From Desulforamulus putei DSM 12395 (lineage in GTDB: Bacteria; Bacillota; Desulfotomaculia; Desulfotomaculales; Desulfotomaculaceae), in NCBI RefSeq assembly GCF_900129195.1, contig NZ_FQUY01000005.1, positions 1 through 64,000 on the forward strand: a stretch of DNA of 64,000 nucleotides, read 5' to 3'. A model generated the notes under the pieces. It was not told the DNA's origin and ran no database searches. It saw only the letters and a list, made by a program, of their open reading frames with translations. Positions 28,701-56,334 of this stretch are shown here, one piece after another. Every line of letters begins with the position of its first letter. The stretch's first letter is position 1. A program made the translations under genes and the position numbers.

Positions 28701-28859
28701 TTATAATTTAAACTTTTCAATAGCTACCTGCAAATCACCAGCAAGAGAGGCCAATGATTGTGCAGAGCTTCCAAACTGTTGTACTGTTGCGTTTGTCTCT
28801 TCAATGGCGGCGGCTACATTTTGAGTAGCGGACATAGCTTGATTAGAGATTTGATCCAT
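28701..28859 (-). pseudogene. C-terminal fragment of a methyl-accepting chemotaxis protein
   Basis: Fifty-two codons from ATG 28859 to TAA 28701 read QISNQAMSATQNVAAAIEET and later SAQSLASLAGDLQVAIEKFK, the standard last helix of the chemotaxis receptor signalling domain. The receptor, signalling tip and membrane parts are absent, and the upstream frame is unrelated, so this is a remnant. Confidence 0.7.
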
Positions 28860-28886
28860 TTGCCTTATCGAAATAAAAAATTCCGA

Positions 28887-29102
28887 TCACATGTGGGATG
28901 CCAGGGCCGGGGGTCTTAATATTGATGCTGGTTTTGTTATGCCATTAACTGCATTTGATACCGTACTTTTTCTTTTAGTAAAGGCGAGGATTGCTCCTAG
29001 GGCGATTGATAAAAACGCAGCGGAATATTGAAATTCAGGAATAAAAATCAAATCGGTTTTTGTCGTAAATCCCTGGTATAATAAACTAGGTAAAAAAATC
29101 AT
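28887..29102 (-). CDS. Short ORF with a PEF-like sorting-signal segment, doubtful
   Basis: A 71-codon frame from ATG 29102. Residues 21-24 read IPEF, followed by a hydrophobic helix and TKRKS. This is the plan of PEP/PEF-CTERM sorting signals (motif, membrane helix, basic tail). No signal peptide is seen, and 24 residues continue past the basic cluster, so it may be the truncated and read-through end of a former surface protein. It overlaps the butyrate kinase promoter region on the other strand. Treat it as a remnant unless expression is shown. Confidence 0.25.
   Translation of the reverse strand: MIFLPSLLYQGFTTKTDLIFIPEFQYSAAFLSIALGAILAFTKRKSTVSNAVNGITKPASILRPPALASHM
29074..29082 (+). promoter_or_regulatory. 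Extended -10 promoter element ahead of buk
   Basis: TGGTATAAT at 29074-29082 is an extended -10 element (TGn before TATAAT), about 65 bases before the butyrate kinase start. No good -35 match was found. Confidence 0.45.
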
Positions 29103-45180: not shown

Positions 45181-46540
45181 AGCCAGGCTGACCTTTTATG
45201 TTACCCTTGCCCTAGGTCTTCAACTTTTGGTTAGCGTCGGCCTGTCCAGTGCGGCAATCACCTTTTATTACCGGGACACCGTTTTACCGGGAACCTCTGT
45301 CCAAGGCGTTGATATCGGCGGGTTAAAGGCTGATGAGGCCGAGAAGGTTTTAAGGGACGCTCTGCCCTGGCCCAGTCCGGAAAGTCTTTTAATGCTGGTG
45401 GACCCGGAGGGACAACCCACCCATATCCGTTATGGTGATATTGACTACCGGGCCGATTATCATGTAACCGTAAAGGAAGCCTTGCGGCACAGCCAAAAAA
45501 CTGCCGCCTGGAACAATATTGGCGCCTTGTTTGGCGCCATGCACCATGGCTGTGACTTGCCTCTGGTCAAAACTTTTGATAACGTTGCCTTTACCAGAAT
45601 TCTTGACAAATTATCGGACAAGTACAATGTCCCGGCCCGGAACGCCCAGTTTGCGTTCAATGGAAATAATGTCATATTATTTCAGGACAGCAAAGGCAGA
45701 CAACTGGACACTGAAGGGACCGTCAAGCAGTTGATGGACCTTCCTGTTGACGAACACCGGTTGGTACTCCGGTTCAAGACCGTTGAGCCTGACATTCGCA
45801 TCTCCGATTTTAACGGAATTAATTCCAGATTGTCCATCTTTGTAACCCAATTCGACCCCACCAACAGGGCCCGTTCCCATAATATTGAACTGGCCAGTAA
45901 ATTAATTAACAATGTGATTGTACCACCCAAACAAGTATTTTCTCTTAATAAGGTTTTGGGTCCCCGTAACCGGGAAAGGGGCTACCTCCAGGCGCCGGTG
46001 ATCATAAACAATAAGTTAACCAGCGATTTTGGCGGCGGCGTCTGCCAGGTGGCTACCACCCTGTATAATGCCGTGTCACTGGCAGGTTTGACGGTGGTGG
46101 AACGGGTCCCCCATTCCCTGCCGGTTCCCTATGCTCCGGCAGGAAAGGACGCCACCATCGCCGGTGATTTCATCGATTTTAAGTTTCTTAACAATACCGA
46201 TTTTCCCGTCTTAATAAGCAGTCAAGTGCAGCAGGGAAAGCTCCTGGTTAGCATTTTTGGCCACCGGCAAGGGGCCTCGGCCCGGTTAATTAAGATTGAA
46301 ACAGAACGGTTGATCACCAAACCCACTCGAAAATATGTGCAAGAGGAGGGGCTGGTCCCCGGTCAGGTGGTGGTTCGCCGACCGGGACGGGACGGTTATC
46401 AATTGAAAACCTACGAAGTCATTTTTGAAAATGACAAAGAAGTGGAGCGGCGCCTGATTTCCCAAACCGTTGTGGACCCGGAACCTGAAGTCATCGCCGT
46501 GGGCCCCGGGGTTCATACCAAGGGCCTGGTAAAAAAATAA
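45173..46540 (+). CDS. VanW family exported protein with peptidoglycan-binding-like domain
   Basis: The 455-residue protein starts at GTG 45173 and has a hydrophobic anchor (about 7-29). An N-terminal YoaR-like (putative peptidoglycan-binding) domain starts near VLPGTSVQGVDIGG at 38. A VanW domain follows (SLNKVLGPRNRERGYLQAPV near 254, FGGGVCQVATTLYNAVSLAG near 284). A G5-like end module shows YQLKTYEVIFENDKEVERRL. VanW domains are common in Firmicutes and found in vancomycin-resistance clusters, but their biochemical role is unknown. A resistance function should not be assumed here; no van genes are present. A terminator follows. Confidence 0.88.
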   Translation: MNKARLTFYVTLALGLQLLVSVGLSSAAITFYYRDTVLPGTSVQGVDIGGLKADEAEKVLRDALPWPSPESLLMLVDPEGQPTHIRYGDIDYRADYHVTVKEALRHSQKTAAWNNIGALFGAMHHGCDLPLVKTFDNVAFTRILDKLSDKYNVPARNAQFAFNGNNVILFQDSKGRQLDTEGTVKQLMDLPVDEHRLVLRFKTVEPDIRISDFNGINSRLSIFVTQFDPTNRARSHNIELASKLINNVIVPPKQVFSLNKVLGPRNRERGYLQAPVIINNKLTSDFGGGVCQVATTLYNAVSLAGLTVVERVPHSLPVPYAPAGKDATIAGDFIDFKFLNNTDFPVLISSQVQQGKLLVSIFGHRQGASARLIKIETERLITKPTRKYVQEEGLVPGQVVVRRPGRDGYQLKTYEVIFENDKEVERRLISQTVVDPEPEVIAVGPGVHTKGLVKK

Positions 46541-46573
46541 AGTCCCCGGCAAAGATATTTGCCGAGGACTTTA
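46540..46573. terminator. Bidirectional terminator between vanW gene and the selenoprotein gene
   Basis: AAAGTCC and GGCAAA pair with TTTGCC and GGACTTT around a short loop, with T-rich sequence on the plus-strand side. Confidence 0.7.
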
Positions 46574-46813
46574 TTATAGCCCCAGTTTGGCTGTAATTTC
46601 CTCCGTTTCGGGAAATCTGCCCAGTTCTTTTTTGGAAAAAATCAATTCCCCGTTTTTCCTTACCTCAAAGACTCCCCCGCCGGAAGGGATCAGCTCAAAG
46701 GAAGAAATCTTATTTTTGTACGTCCGCAACAAGGTTTCGGCCAGACCGGCCGCTTTCGGCAGGTAGCCTCAAGCAGTGCAGTACTCAATGGACAATTTTA
46801 CTTCTCCAGCCAT
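46574..46813 (-). CDS. SelW/Rdx-type selenoprotein with in-frame UGA
   Basis: ATG 46813 (GGGAGG upstream) opens an 80-codon frame that reads through one TGA at codon 15 (46769-46771) to TAA at 46574-46576. The product is a thioredoxin-fold SelT/SelW/SelH (Rdx) protein: KLSIEYCTAUGYLPKA at the N-terminus has the CxxU redox motif, and SGGGVFEVRKNGELIFSKKE follows in the middle. The length of 79 residues fits SelW. Just after the TGA, CGGCC pairs with GGCCG around GGTCT, a plausible bacterial SECIS with the guanine-rich apical loop about 20 bases downstream. Treating the TGA as stop would give a 14-residue peptide, so Sec insertion is the better reading. Confidence 0.85.
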
Positions 46814-46972
46814 TTGACAACCTCCCATAAATTCTAGTTTATTTTTCCAATATATATTATATCACTTATGTTATGCAAAAACAAAATTGGTACCTGGCCA
46901 TTGGCCTTGGCCCTTGGCTTTTGTCCTTCAGCTTTAGGCACCACAGACTAAAGGCCAATGGCCAAAACGGCC

Positions 46973-47923
46973 TTATTTAAACAGGTCAGTGCTCAGGTAT
47001 CTCATACCGCCGTCACAAAGGATCGTAACAATCCTCGCCCCGGGGTCACACCAGCCGGCCAGTCTCAGGGCCGCGGCCACATTGCCCCCGGAGGTATAAC
47101 CGCAGAGCAGTCCTTCTTCGGTGGCCAAGCGGCGGGCCGCCCGGATGGCCTCCCCGTCGGTGACCGTTATATAGCCGTCACACACCCGGGGCTGCCACAG
47201 GTCCGGTATTTTTGCATAGCTGGAGCCCTGCAGAACGTGCTTTGGATTGGTCACCGGCTTGCCGGCCAGCACCGGAGCGGTGGCCGGCTCCACCGCCCAG
47301 CATTGGATGTTGGGATCCTTTTCTTTGAGGGCGGTGGCGATGCCGGTAAAGGTGCCGGAGGTGCCCACCACATCGAGAAAATAATCGATCTTGCCATCCA
47401 TCTGCCGCCAGATCTCCTGGGCGGTGGTCTCATAGTGTGCCGCACAGTTGCCGGGGTTATGAAATTGATTCACCCAAAAGGCGCCCAATTCTTTCTGCAG
47501 TTCTCTGGCCCTTTCTTCCACCAGAGCCAGGTCTTCACCGGTAACTTGCCCCGGTTTGCCCCCCTCCGCCTGGGGTACCAATTCCACCCTGGCCCCCATG
47601 GCCTGTAAAACCTGCCGCCGTTCGGGACTGTTTCCCTCGGACATGACAGCCACAAAACGATAGCCCTTAATGGCGCATACCATGGCCAGGCCAATACCGG
47701 TATTGCCGCTGGTTTCTTCCAAAACGATGCTGCCCGGTTTCAGTTTCCCTTCCTTTTCAGCATCCTCAATCATTTTCAGGGCAATTCTGTCTTTCATACT
47801 ACCGCTGGGGTTCATAAACTCCGCTTTGGCAAATATTTTGCCCGGCAAATCCTTGCCTATCCTTGCCAGTTCGATCAAGGGGGTATTGCCAATGGCTTCC
47901 AGTACGGACGAACAGGTTTTCAA
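46973..47923 (-). CDS. cysK: Cysteine synthase (O-acetylserine sulfhydrylase)
   Basis: PLP enzyme that makes cysteine from O-acetylserine and sulfide. A TTG start at 47923 with GTGGAGGG upstream gives 316 residues; an earlier in-frame start lies within the site. IGNTPLIELARIG lies near 11, the PLP lysine in NPSGSMKDR near 39, ETSGNTGIGLAM near 66, GTSGTFTG near 173 and GYTSGGNVAAAL near 280. Length and motifs match CysK/CysM. A terminator separates it from the MoaD-like gene upstream, so it is transcribed separately. Confidence 0.92.
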   Translation of the reverse strand: MKTCSSVLEAIGNTPLIELARIGKDLPGKIFAKAEFMNPSGSMKDRIALKMIEDAEKEGKLKPGSIVLEETSGNTGIGLAMVCAIKGYRFVAVMSEGNSPERRQVLQAMGARVELVPQAEGGKPGQVTGEDLALVEERARELQKELGAFWVNQFHNPGNCAAHYETTAQEIWRQMDGKIDYFLDVVGTSGTFTGIATALKEKDPNIQCWAVEPATAPVLAGKPVTNPKHVLQGSSYAKIPDLWQPRVCDGYITVTDGEAIRAARRLATEEGLLCGYTSGGNVAAALRLAGWCDPGARIVTILCDGGMRYLSTDLFK

Positions 47924-47982
47924 GACATTTTCCCTCCACAAGGTTTTTCCTGATCACAGGGCACATTCCCTGTTTATGTACC

Positions 47983-52780: not shown

Positions 52781-55159
52781 TTATTTGTCAAAGTGGCATA
52801 ACCCATCGGCATAATGCTGCAGTTTTTTATCCACCAGATGAAAAATGGTTCCCTCCGGGTACCCGCCGTCTTCCTGACGTTCACCGGCCGGTACCCCGGT
52901 TAATAATTCAATGCCCTCTTCCACCCTGGAGATGGCATAAATATGAAACATTCCCTGCTCCACAGCCTCCACCACCTCGTGACTTAACATCAGGTTGTCA
53001 ACATTTTGTACAGGGATGATGACCCCCTGTTCCCCGGTGAGGCCCCTGGCCTGGCAGACCCCGAAGAAACCCTCGATTTTTTCCGTAACGCCGCCAATGG
53101 GCTGAATTTCCCCGTTCTGGTTCACGGAACCGGTCACCGCCAGGCACTGTTTGACAGGGACCCCGGACAAACTGGAGAGCAGCGCGTAGAGTTCCGCACT
53201 GGAAGCGCTATCCCCCTCAACCCCTTCATAGAGCTGTTCAAAGGTGATGCGGGCCGATAAGGTGAGGGGTTTATTTTGGGCAAACATGCTGCCCAGATAA
53301 CCGGTTAGCGTAAGAACGCCCTTGGAGTGAATACTGCCGCTCATTTCGGTTTCCCGTTCAATATTCACCAGTCCCTCATGCCCCATGTAGGTTTTGGCAG
53401 TAATGCGGGAGGGCTTGCCAAAGGCGTAGTTACCCACATCCAAGACAGCCAGGCCGTTCACCTGTCCCACCACAGCCCCCTCGGTATCCACCAGGATCTT
53501 GCCCCGCAAAATAAGCTCCTGTAACCGTTCCTCCACCCGGCGGCAGCGGTAGATCTTTTCATTGATGGCCTGGCGGACATGTTCAGCCCCTACCAGTTCT
53601 GCTCCTGCCGCCTGGGCCCAGGCAGCTGCTTCCAGGATCACTTCCACCACTTCATTAAACTGAGTGGAAAGCTTATTCTGGTTGCCGGACAGCCGGGAGC
53701 CGTATTCAATGATCTCACCCAGGCCTGACTTGTCAAAATGAGGCAGGTTTTCACGGCGGCACACCGAACCCACAAAGGCAACATAATTCCTTAAATTTTC
53801 CGGGGTACGGGGCATCACCACTTCAAAATCCACCATGACCTTAAAGAGCTTGCCAAAGTCTTCGTCCAACTGTTGTAACAGGTGGTAAATCCTCTGTGAT
53901 CCAATCAGGATGACCTTGACATTCAACGGTATGGGTTCCGGTTTCAAGCTGATGGTGGGTACAGACCGGTAATGTTCCCCGATATTTTCCACAATAACCT
54001 GTCGGTTCTTTAACGCCTTTTTTAACGTTTCCCAGGCATTGGCGTCCGCTAGAAGGTCCTTGGCCTGCAGGATCAGATACCCCCCGTTGGCCCGGTGCAT
54101 GGCGCCGGGTTTAATCATGGTAAAGTCGGTGTTTACAGTACCCAACTGGCTGCGGTATTCGACTTTGCCAAACAGGTTATAGTAATGCGGGTTGGTTTCC
54201 ACCACCACCGGCGCCCCTGTGGTGTCAGCATTGTTTACCAGCAGGTGAACACGGTAGTTTTTGTACGGGTCATCCGTAGGCTTCTCCTGATCCTGACCTT
54301 CCATTCCGGTAAGGCAGTCAATGTTGTTCGTTATGTCTTCTACCAGGTCATTGAGGTAAGCAACAATTTTCCCATGCTCCTTGTACTGCTCCTGCACATT
54401 TTTCACCAAAGGAACAATGGTTTCCAGGATCAGTTGTTTATCCAGGTCCTTTATCACCCGGTCCGCTTCTTTTTCCATCAACTTGCCGTTAAAGGCCAGT
54501 TCCTCTGTGCATCCTTGCAGTTTCTTTAAACTTTCTTCAAGGACCTGTCGTTCTTCGGTTGATAACTCATCATACTGTTCTTTGGAAAGGGGTTTGCCCT
54601 CTTTAACGGGAATAAAAAAGATTCCCTGTTCGGACACTTTCATAACAAAACCTGCCGCATTGGCATCTTCCTTCAATTGCTCCAGGTCACGATCCAATTT
54701 TTGCTGCAGCTCTTGCAGAATAGCGCTTTTTCTCTGGCTGTATTCCTTTCCCTCAAACAGCCTGGAAATGGCGTTTTTCATTTCAGTAGTTAAATTTGCC
54801 ATATCCCTTTGGAATTTGCTCCCCCATCCCGGCGGCAGGCTTACCGCTTGGGGAACATCGGGATTGTGAAAATTATAAAGCAGGCACCAGTCCCCGGGGG
54901 TTTTTTCTCTGGCTGCGGCCTGGGCCACGACGGTTTGGGTATAGGTGGTTTTACCGGTGCCGGCGGGTCCCGCCACAAAAATGTTATACCCGAAGGCCTT
55001 CATGGTAAGGCCGAACTGCATGGCCCGCACCGCCCTTTCCTGACCGATAAAATCATGCAGCGGCGGCACATCTGCCGAGGTGCAGCAAAAATCCAATTCG
55101 GCCGCATCACACCGGCGTCGCAAACGGTGGATATCAACACGTGTTTTCTTAAGATCCAT
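52781..55159 (-). CDS. Lon-like ATP-dependent protease (AAA_32/Lon-C type)
   Basis: The start ATG 55159 with GGAGGAAAC upstream gives 792 residues. An N-terminal region (about 1-50) precedes the AAA module with Walker A FVAGPAGTGKTT near 60. A coiled-coil insertion (about 125-250) follows, and the C-terminal protease domain has the catalytic Ser in EGDSASSAEL near 670 and Lys in GGVTEKIEGFF near 715. It belongs to the Lon-like proteases without the Lon N-domain, common in spore formers and sulfate reducers. It probably degrades misfolded proteins in the cytoplasm; a membrane anchor is not obvious. Confidence 0.88.
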   Translation of the reverse strand: MDLKKTRVDIHRLRRRCDAAELDFCCTSADVPPLHDFIGQERAVRAMQFGLTMKAFGYNIFVAGPAGTGKTTYTQTVVAQAAAREKTPGDWCLLYNFHNPDVPQAVSLPPGWGSKFQRDMANLTTEMKNAISRLFEGKEYSQRKSAILQELQQKLDRDLEQLKEDANAAGFVMKVSEQGIFFIPVKEGKPLSKEQYDELSTEERQVLEESLKKLQGCTEELAFNGKLMEKEADRVIKDLDKQLILETIVPLVKNVQEQYKEHGKIVAYLNDLVEDITNNIDCLTGMEGQDQEKPTDDPYKNYRVHLLVNNADTTGAPVVVETNPHYYNLFGKVEYRSQLGTVNTDFTMIKPGAMHRANGGYLILQAKDLLADANAWETLKKALKNRQVIVENIGEHYRSVPTISLKPEPIPLNVKVILIGSQRIYHLLQQLDEDFGKLFKVMVDFEVVMPRTPENLRNYVAFVGSVCRRENLPHFDKSGLGEIIEYGSRLSGNQNKLSTQFNEVVEVILEAAAWAQAAGAELVGAEHVRQAINEKIYRCRRVEERLQELILRGKILVDTEGAVVGQVNGLAVLDVGNYAFGKPSRITAKTYMGHEGLVNIERETEMSGSIHSKGVLTLTGYLGSMFAQNKPLTLSARITFEQLYEGVEGDSASSAELYALLSSLSGVPVKQCLAVTGSVNQNGEIQPIGGVTEKIEGFFGVCQARGLTGEQGVIIPVQNVDNLMLSHEVVEAVEQGMFHIYAISRVEEGIELLTGVPAGERQEDGGYPEGTIFHLVDKKLQHYADGLCHFDK

Positions 55160-55272
55160 AGTTTCCTCCGCAAGGCTTTTTGTATATATACTATTAAAGT
55201 AACGCAGCTCCTGCCTTAAAGGACATTTTTTAAAAAGTTGTTCGGAACAGTTTACCTGTGCTATTATGAAAT

Positions 55273-55342
55273 GTGAGATGTTAGAAGTAAGGTAAGCCAA
55301 TAAAAAGGCCATTGGTCATTGGCTATTGGCCATTGGCCTTTG
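55273..55342. repeat. Short repeats between protease and radical SAM genes
   Basis: GTGAGATGTTAGAAGTAAGG resembles the purine-rich tract at 15973. It is followed by tandem near-copies of GGCCATTGG (GGCCATTGGTCATTGGCTATTGGCCATTGGCC across 55308-55338). Similar GGCCATTGG/GGCCAATGG words lie at 46898-46970. Confidence 0.45.
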
Positions 55343-55371
55343 AAAGATGGTGTAATGTTGAGGGATGCAGC

Positions 55372-56334
55372 ATGTTTGAGAAATCAACCCGTTACCGCCA
55401 GTATTCCGATCATCTAACGGAAAAGTTTGGTCAGAAGGTCTATAAACTTCCTGTGAATCTTCCCGGCACCTGTCCCAACCGGGACGGCACCGTAGGCCGG
55501 GGCGGCTGTATTTTCTGTGATGAAGATGGGGCCGGCTTTGAATGCCTTCCCAACACCATGAGTGTGAAACAGCAAATTCAAACAAACCGGGAGTTTTTTA
55601 TCCGCCGGTTTAACGCCAAAAAGTTTATCATATATTTTCAGGCCTTTACCAATACGTATTTGCCCCTAGAGCAATTTAAGGAAAATATTCTGGCCGCAGC
55701 AGATGAAGAGGATGTGGTGGGCATCTCGATTTCCACCCGACCGGACTGCATTAACGACGCCTGCCTGGACTTCCTGCAGGAACTGCAGGCCCGGCGAGGG
55801 CTGGATATCAACATTGAACTGGGGCTGCAGACCGTTAATTACCATACGCTGGTGAAGGTAAACCGCGGTCATACCCTGGCAGAATTTATTGATGCCGTAC
55901 AGCGCATTCAAAAAAGAAACTTTGAAATCTGCGTTCACATCATCTTGAACTTACCCTGGGATAACAGCCTTGACGTCATTGAAAACGCCAAAATCCTCTC
56001 GGCCCTGGGGGTCCATTATGTTAAACTCCATTCCCTCTATGTGGTAAAGGGTACGGTGCTGGCAGACATGTATCAAAGGGAAGAATTTCACATCATCCCC
56101 TTGGAGGAATACATCAACCGGGTGGTCACCTTCCTGGAATATCTGGACCCCCGCATCGTGATCCAGCGGTTGGTGGGCAAGGGCCCGCAGGACAACCAGT
56201 TGTTCTCCAACTGGAACACCAGTTGGTGGAAAATTAAGCAGACCGTTGAGAAAACACTGGTGGAAAGGGACACCTGGCAGGGCAAGAAATGTGACTACTT
56301 AAACGGCAAAGCCTTGAGGTTTTACCCCCGGTAA
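55372..56334 (+). CDS. Radical SAM protein, TIGR01212 (YhcC-like) family
   Basis: The start ATG 55372 gives 320 residues; the upstream extension contains the repeat region and has no site. The radical SAM cluster cysteines are at about 34, 46 and 49 (CPNRDGTVGRGGCIFC). This CX11CX2C spacing is typical of the TIGR01212 family and unlike the usual CX3CX2C. SISTRPDCIN near 122 and HIILNLPWD near 190 also fit. The reaction is unknown; the family is related to Elp3-type radical SAM proteins. A strong terminator follows. Confidence 0.9.
   Translation: MFEKSTRYRQYSDHLTEKFGQKVYKLPVNLPGTCPNRDGTVGRGGCIFCDEDGAGFECLPNTMSVKQQIQTNREFFIRRFNAKKFIIYFQAFTNTYLPLEQFKENILAAADEEDVVGISISTRPDCINDACLDFLQELQARRGLDINIELGLQTVNYHTLVKVNRGHTLAEFIDAVQRIQKRNFEICVHIILNLPWDNSLDVIENAKILSALGVHYVKLHSLYVVKGTVLADMYQREEFHIIPLEEYINRVVTFLEYLDPRIVIQRLVGKGPQDNQLFSNWNTSWWKIKQTVEKTLVERDTWQGKKCDYLNGKALRFYPR

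Follow-up and report, generated by a model that had tools for sequence, protein, structure and literature searches.

A probable SelW-like selenoprotein gene with an in-frame UGA and a putative SECIS hairpin in Desulforamulus putei DSM 12395

The selW-like locus and its neighbours

The window, meaning the whole stretch of 64,000 nucleotides that was analysed, carries on its minus strand a small gene with an internal TGA, together with the following features:

46973..47941, minus strand: open reading frame of a PALP-family pyridoxal-phosphate enzyme, upstream of selW
46820..46826, minus strand: GGGAGGT, a Shine-Dalgarno-like stretch 6 nt ahead of the start codon, from inspection of the sequence
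46574..46813, minus strand: selW-like selenoprotein gene, ATG to TAA, 79 residues, Sec at residue 15
46769..46771, minus strand: in-frame TGA, the Sec codon of C12-T-A-U15 (CxxU), from the translation and its retention in 9/9 genus genomes
46738..46752, minus strand: putative bacterial SECIS apical hairpin with a 5-bp stem and a GGUCU loop, from its fold, cross-species pairing and the criteria of PMC13188914
46536..46575, minus strand: intrinsic-terminator-like hairpin of 18 pairs with a T run, overlapping the selW stop codon and lying between selW and the VanW-like gene

Translated directly, minus-strand positions 46813→46574 give a frame of 79 residues with a single in-frame TGA, MAGEVKLSIEYCTAUGYLPKAAG...AKLGL*, in which U15 is the TGA at 46771→46769. 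C12 lies three residues ahead of U15, and CTAU is a CxxU motif near the N-terminus. Under translation table 11 the same frame yields just a 52-residue ORF that starts at a TTG after the TGA (46732→46574; ORFs of at least 50 aa), and the N-terminus or the whole gene would therefore be lost to standard calling. An earlier reading, made from the sequence only, had proposed a complete 79-residue Rdx-family protein with Sec at this TGA and a CxxU motif with U at position 15, dropped by ordinary ORF calling; the frame and the motif are as it described them, on the minus strand, which it had left unstated, and only the TTG-started fragment past the TGA is left to a standard gene caller.

The Rdx family has a thioredoxin-like fold. 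In the family search that the sequence-only reading had suggested, the window protein exceeded the curated cut-offs of all three family models, namely Pfam Rdx (PF10262; 2.6e-23, 82.4 bits, cut-off 22.6), NCBIfam NF041051, 'SelT/SelW/SelH family (seleno)protein' (2.3e-28, 98.2 bits, cut-off 88), and TIGR02174 (1.2e-18, 67.2 bits, cut-off 34.2), which places it among the SelW-like/Rdx proteins. Sequence matches to solved homologues comprise eight distinct PDB sequences, the best being 2fa8 at 2.3e-13; 2npb, 'Selenoprotein W', matches at 4.2e-4. The presence of a real selW-like gene at 46813→46574 is thus confirmed.

The PALP-family ORF, which we take to be the cysteine synthase gene cysK, is separated from selW by 159 bases. 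A cysK-like gene stands directly upstream of selW, in the same orientation and within 1.5 kb, in 5/9 genus genomes, and some members of the genus may transcribe the two genes together. The VanW-family ORF is convergent with selW in the window, and a VanW-like gene is found near selW in five of the nine genus genomes (within 1.5 kb; in G007 the contig ends there). Neither gene was found within 3 kb on each side in the relatives L002 and L003. Two terminator-like sites were found in the region, against 1.1 expected from shuffles. Between the cysK-like gene and selW, at 46880-46985 of the window, lies an intergenic inverted repeat, TGGCCATTGGCC...GGCCAATGGCCA; the genome has partial matches to it at three other places, two of them overlapping on contig 42 and one on contig 12.

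The window was also scanned for frames with a single in-frame TGA, which gave 66 candidates; eight were left, the selW-like gene among them, after removal of those overlapped by at least 30% by another long ORF. A Lon-protease-like ORF at 52781-55585 was rejected as a selenoprotein, its TGA probably lying in an untranslated leader, because all matched domains follow the TGA. The candidate at 28701-29102 had no Pfam match, and the five others have only 11-26 codons ahead of the TGA. The selW-like gene illustrates that recoding can be picked up in raw sequence.

Conservation of the UGA and of the hairpin behind it

Forty-one genomes, its own and those of 40 relatives, were searched for the gene; TGA stands at the motif position in all 15 with a match, the other 26 having none, and within the genus it is present in 9/9 genomes examined, own included. 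Were the codon a true stop, orthologues should end there, as the sequence-only reading had itself pointed out; those of the eight other genus genomes, 72-89% identical, retain the TGA and read on past it. Among 81 loci (best 80 of 140 relatives) the Sec position is occupied by TGA in 80, by the Cys codon TGC in one, L049, and by no other codon, and the motif is CxxU in 79, CxxC in one and UxxU in one. The loci with the TGA read span several phyla. Since the best 80 of 140 relatives were used, the count of 80/81 leans towards near kin, and distant Cys forms are under-represented in it. Very few or no Cys homologues of SelW-like proteins are reported among Sec-using organisms (PMC1794560).

Past the TGA, the comparison of the gene with that of G003 gave dN 0.09 and dS 0.58, a figure that takes in one codon beyond the G003 stop, and with that of G008 dN 0.10 with dS saturated. 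Purifying selection acts on the portion of selW beyond the TGA.

In bacteria, selenocysteine is inserted at a UGA by way of an mRNA hairpin just past that codon, to which SelB binds with its Sec-tRNA(Sec) cargo. The model of the bacterial SECIS in PMC13188914 has a loop of 3-9 nt with a G in its first two positions, a stem of 4-16 bp, a distance of 16-37 nt from the UGA to the loop and an energy of at most -7.5 kcal/mol. The sequence-only reading had pointed to a CGGCC/GGCCG hairpin with a GGTCT loop about 20 bases past the TGA as a plausible SECIS. This hairpin, CGGCC-GGUCU-GGCCG at 46752→46738, was recovered; its stem starts 16 nt past the UGA and its loop 21 nt past it, and with a 5-nt loop, 5 bp and -8.2 kcal/mol it falls within the model on every point. 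Whereas eukaryotic SECIS elements are placed in the 3' UTR (PMC1088965), the putative element of the window lies within the coding region.

Taken singly, the hairpin is unexceptional. Synonymous recodings score equally well in 10% of cases, the 66-nt fold around it is average (z -0.10), and in a 37-nt fragment a different fold beats it; when the hairpin alone is scored in the nine genus sequences, its own, L107 and L108 reach -7.5 kcal/mol and the other six lie at -4.0 to -6.7 kcal/mol. Support for the hairpin comes from comparison across species. Of 95 regions 93 were compared, L049 (Cys) and L058 (which has an N) being dropped, and these reduced to 88 distinct sequences for the pairing test. 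Against synonymous recoding the 93 TGA rows have a mean z of -2.2, with 40/93 at or under 0.05.

All five pairs form in each of the nine genus members, which bears out the suggestion of a plausible SECIS, and registers slid by 1-3 in the genus alignment yield no full stem. At the second pair (21-33), where both bases are third codon positions, five genus sequences have A-U and four have G-C; this is the compensatory change looked for in a bacterial SECIS, the two arms switching together between A-U and G-C by synonymous substitution (shared descent ignored). When codons were permuted with the amino acids preserved, the observed pairing was reached in 28/2000 permutations for the nine genus rows, in 0/2000 for 29 distinct homologues of at least 60% identity and in 0/2000 for the 88 distinct sequences, statistics that likewise ignore shared descent. 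In the wide set 40/88 distinct sequences hold all five pairs in exact register, and some others make a shifted hairpin. A search of 46540-46900 against Rfam gave four weak, sub-threshold matches and no SECIS family; a general bacterial SECIS model is perhaps absent from Rfam.

Selenocysteine machinery and reading of the UGA

A selenocysteine pathway, implied by the sequence-only reading, was looked for in the genome (3.1 Mb, 65 contigs, completeness 100), and selA, selB, selC and selD are all present; the absence of selB or selC, which would have spoken against that reading, was not encountered. On contig 30, selA (624 bits, cut-off 268) ends as a match 44 bases before the match of selB (378 bits, cut-off 242), and the same contig holds a match to the tRNA-Sec model (70.9, cut-off 47) that ARAGORN calls tRNA-SeC with anticodon tca. 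In 14 control genomes the cut-offs were passed by selB in two, selA in one, selD in two and the tRNA-Sec model in five, and a second place above the tRNA-Sec cut-off in the genome itself, L097, is tRNA-Ser by ARAGORN; because of these tRNA-Sec passes the assignment of selC rests on the ARAGORN call as well as on the model.

The selD match (409 bits, cut-off 125) contains a TGA, which in the gene L091 (G000:C31:16587-17510) is in frame near the N-terminus. Because its gene carries this codon, SelD of this genome is probably also a selenoprotein; SelD is listed among the selenoproteins of Desulfotomaculum reducens (PMC1794560).

The computed evidence consists of family membership, TGA conservation, a compensated hairpin and a complete Sec machinery. 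The internal UGA of the selW-like gene is very probably read as selenocysteine, and we are close to certain that the gene is a functional member of the Rdx family in which UGA15 is read as Sec via the hairpin and Cys12/Sec15 is the redox pair. Sec-tRNA(Sec) would be produced by SelA and SelD on selC, SelB carrying it would bind the putative hairpin right after UGA15, and UGA15 would thus be decoded as selenocysteine. The Cys12/Sec15 pair of the small Rdx protein would then serve as its redox centre. Actual Sec insertion at UGA15, the binding of SelB and the redox role are what we infer, and the product probably acts in thiol redox or peroxide handling.

The codon might instead be suppressed by Trp or another near-cognate tRNA, or translation might restart at TTG 46732 to give a 52-residue protein, for which a downstream table-11 ORF with that start (46732→46574) is indeed available. 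With a restart the product would lack the CxxU motif, which is present in 79/81 loci (best 80 of 140 relatives; the others CxxC and UxxU), and the genome has the Sec machinery along with a SECIS-like hairpin that covaries, which makes suppression or restart very unlikely. Less likely still is a pseudogene, with a decaying frame and a TGA that arose by mutation of a Cys codon (TGC/TGT). In one genome by itself, that is how a lone TGA at a motif of Cys type would appear, but the TGA is kept in 9/9 genus genomes and 80/81 loci (best 80 of 140 relatives) of several phyla, the part after it is under purifying selection and the genome has the full Sec machinery. That both the open frame and the hairpin arose by chance can be dismissed, for although the hairpin alone falls within the range of synonymous recodings, the Rdx E-value is 2.6e-23 and orthologues 72-89% identical occur in eight other genus genomes.

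The selenocysteine-containing SelW-like product that we favour belongs to a long-known bacterial family already described in the genus. A SelW-like selenoprotein was listed in 2006 for Desulfotomaculum reducens (PMC1794560), which in current NCBI taxonomy is Desulforamulus reducens, of the window's genus, and because both the family and its occurrence in the genus are already published there, the novelty of the gene is small. With bacterial SelW-like selenoproteins such as that of D. reducens (PMC1794560) it has in common the family scores, CxxU, the place of Sec and a SECIS-like hairpin after the UGA; only the sequence of this species differs, and no difference in kind was found. SelW genes entirely missed by genome annotation have been reported (PMC4607533), and Campylobacter jejuni SelW (CJnc60; PMC11955535, PMC4607533) is a comparable SelW selenoprotein, of 80 residues, that annotation missed and that is read past its UGA, translation past that codon having been shown by ribosome profiling and proteomics (PMC11955535). 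That organism is of another phylum, and the window gene is known from sequence alone. Eukaryotic selenoprotein W (e.g. 2npb) is of a common family by sequence and has the CxxU motif (PMC7539508), but is remote (E 4.2e-4). The gain is a correct call of a gene that standard stop-codon rules lose, and one more species for a known selenoprotein family.

Putative UxxU paralogues in Bacilli

Outside the window, Ammoniphilus sp. YIM 78166 (G041) has a SelW-like gene, L045 3001-3237 (= L129), whose Cys and Sec positions are both TGA, and G044, a second genome of that family of Bacilli, has another, L130 829-1047, with the two TGA codons likewise placed. The motif of the UxxU copy reads EY-U-TG-U-GFLPK, with the UGAs nine bases apart. 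The two UxxU proteins are identical in 63/81 residues (dN 0.14 against dS 1.6), and that of G041 matches Rdx at 3.3e-22. Ordinary CNMU copies also occur in both genomes (L133, L134), and selB is present in G041, which the selB search covered.

Two wider, overlapping draws of genomes were searched with the UxxU paralogue as query, TGA being counted anywhere in the match. In the paralogue's class 55/398 genomes had a match, and 56/59 matches contain TGA at any position; in the window's phylum 27/398 genomes had a match, and 24/27 matches contain TGA at any position. The only two-TGA matches among the 59 are the G041 and G044 UxxU genes, and the only one among the 27 is that of G003, which was rejected as UxxU: its motif is CTAU, and its second TGA stands at the protein end and is read as an ordinary stop.

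The bacterial SelW-like motif is listed as CxxU (PMC13188914, PMC9312934), with one Sec (PMC13188914), and UxxU is not among the motifs given for bacterial SelW-like proteins in the accessible text of these two reviews. UxxU SELENOW is described in amphioxus and the alga Ostreococcus lucimarinus (PMC7539508), so that only the bacterial case would be new. We consider it likely that one branch of the bacterial SelW-like family carries two selenocysteines. If so, both UGAs, nine bases from each other, would share a single hairpin. The paralogues, if real, would offer a natural test of whether one SECIS can act on a close pair of UGAs and would widen the range of motifs listed for SelW-like proteins of bacteria.

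On viral contigs 18 stretches matched a pattern, and none encoded a relative; among plasmids, 45 records have homologues, at an identity under 60%.
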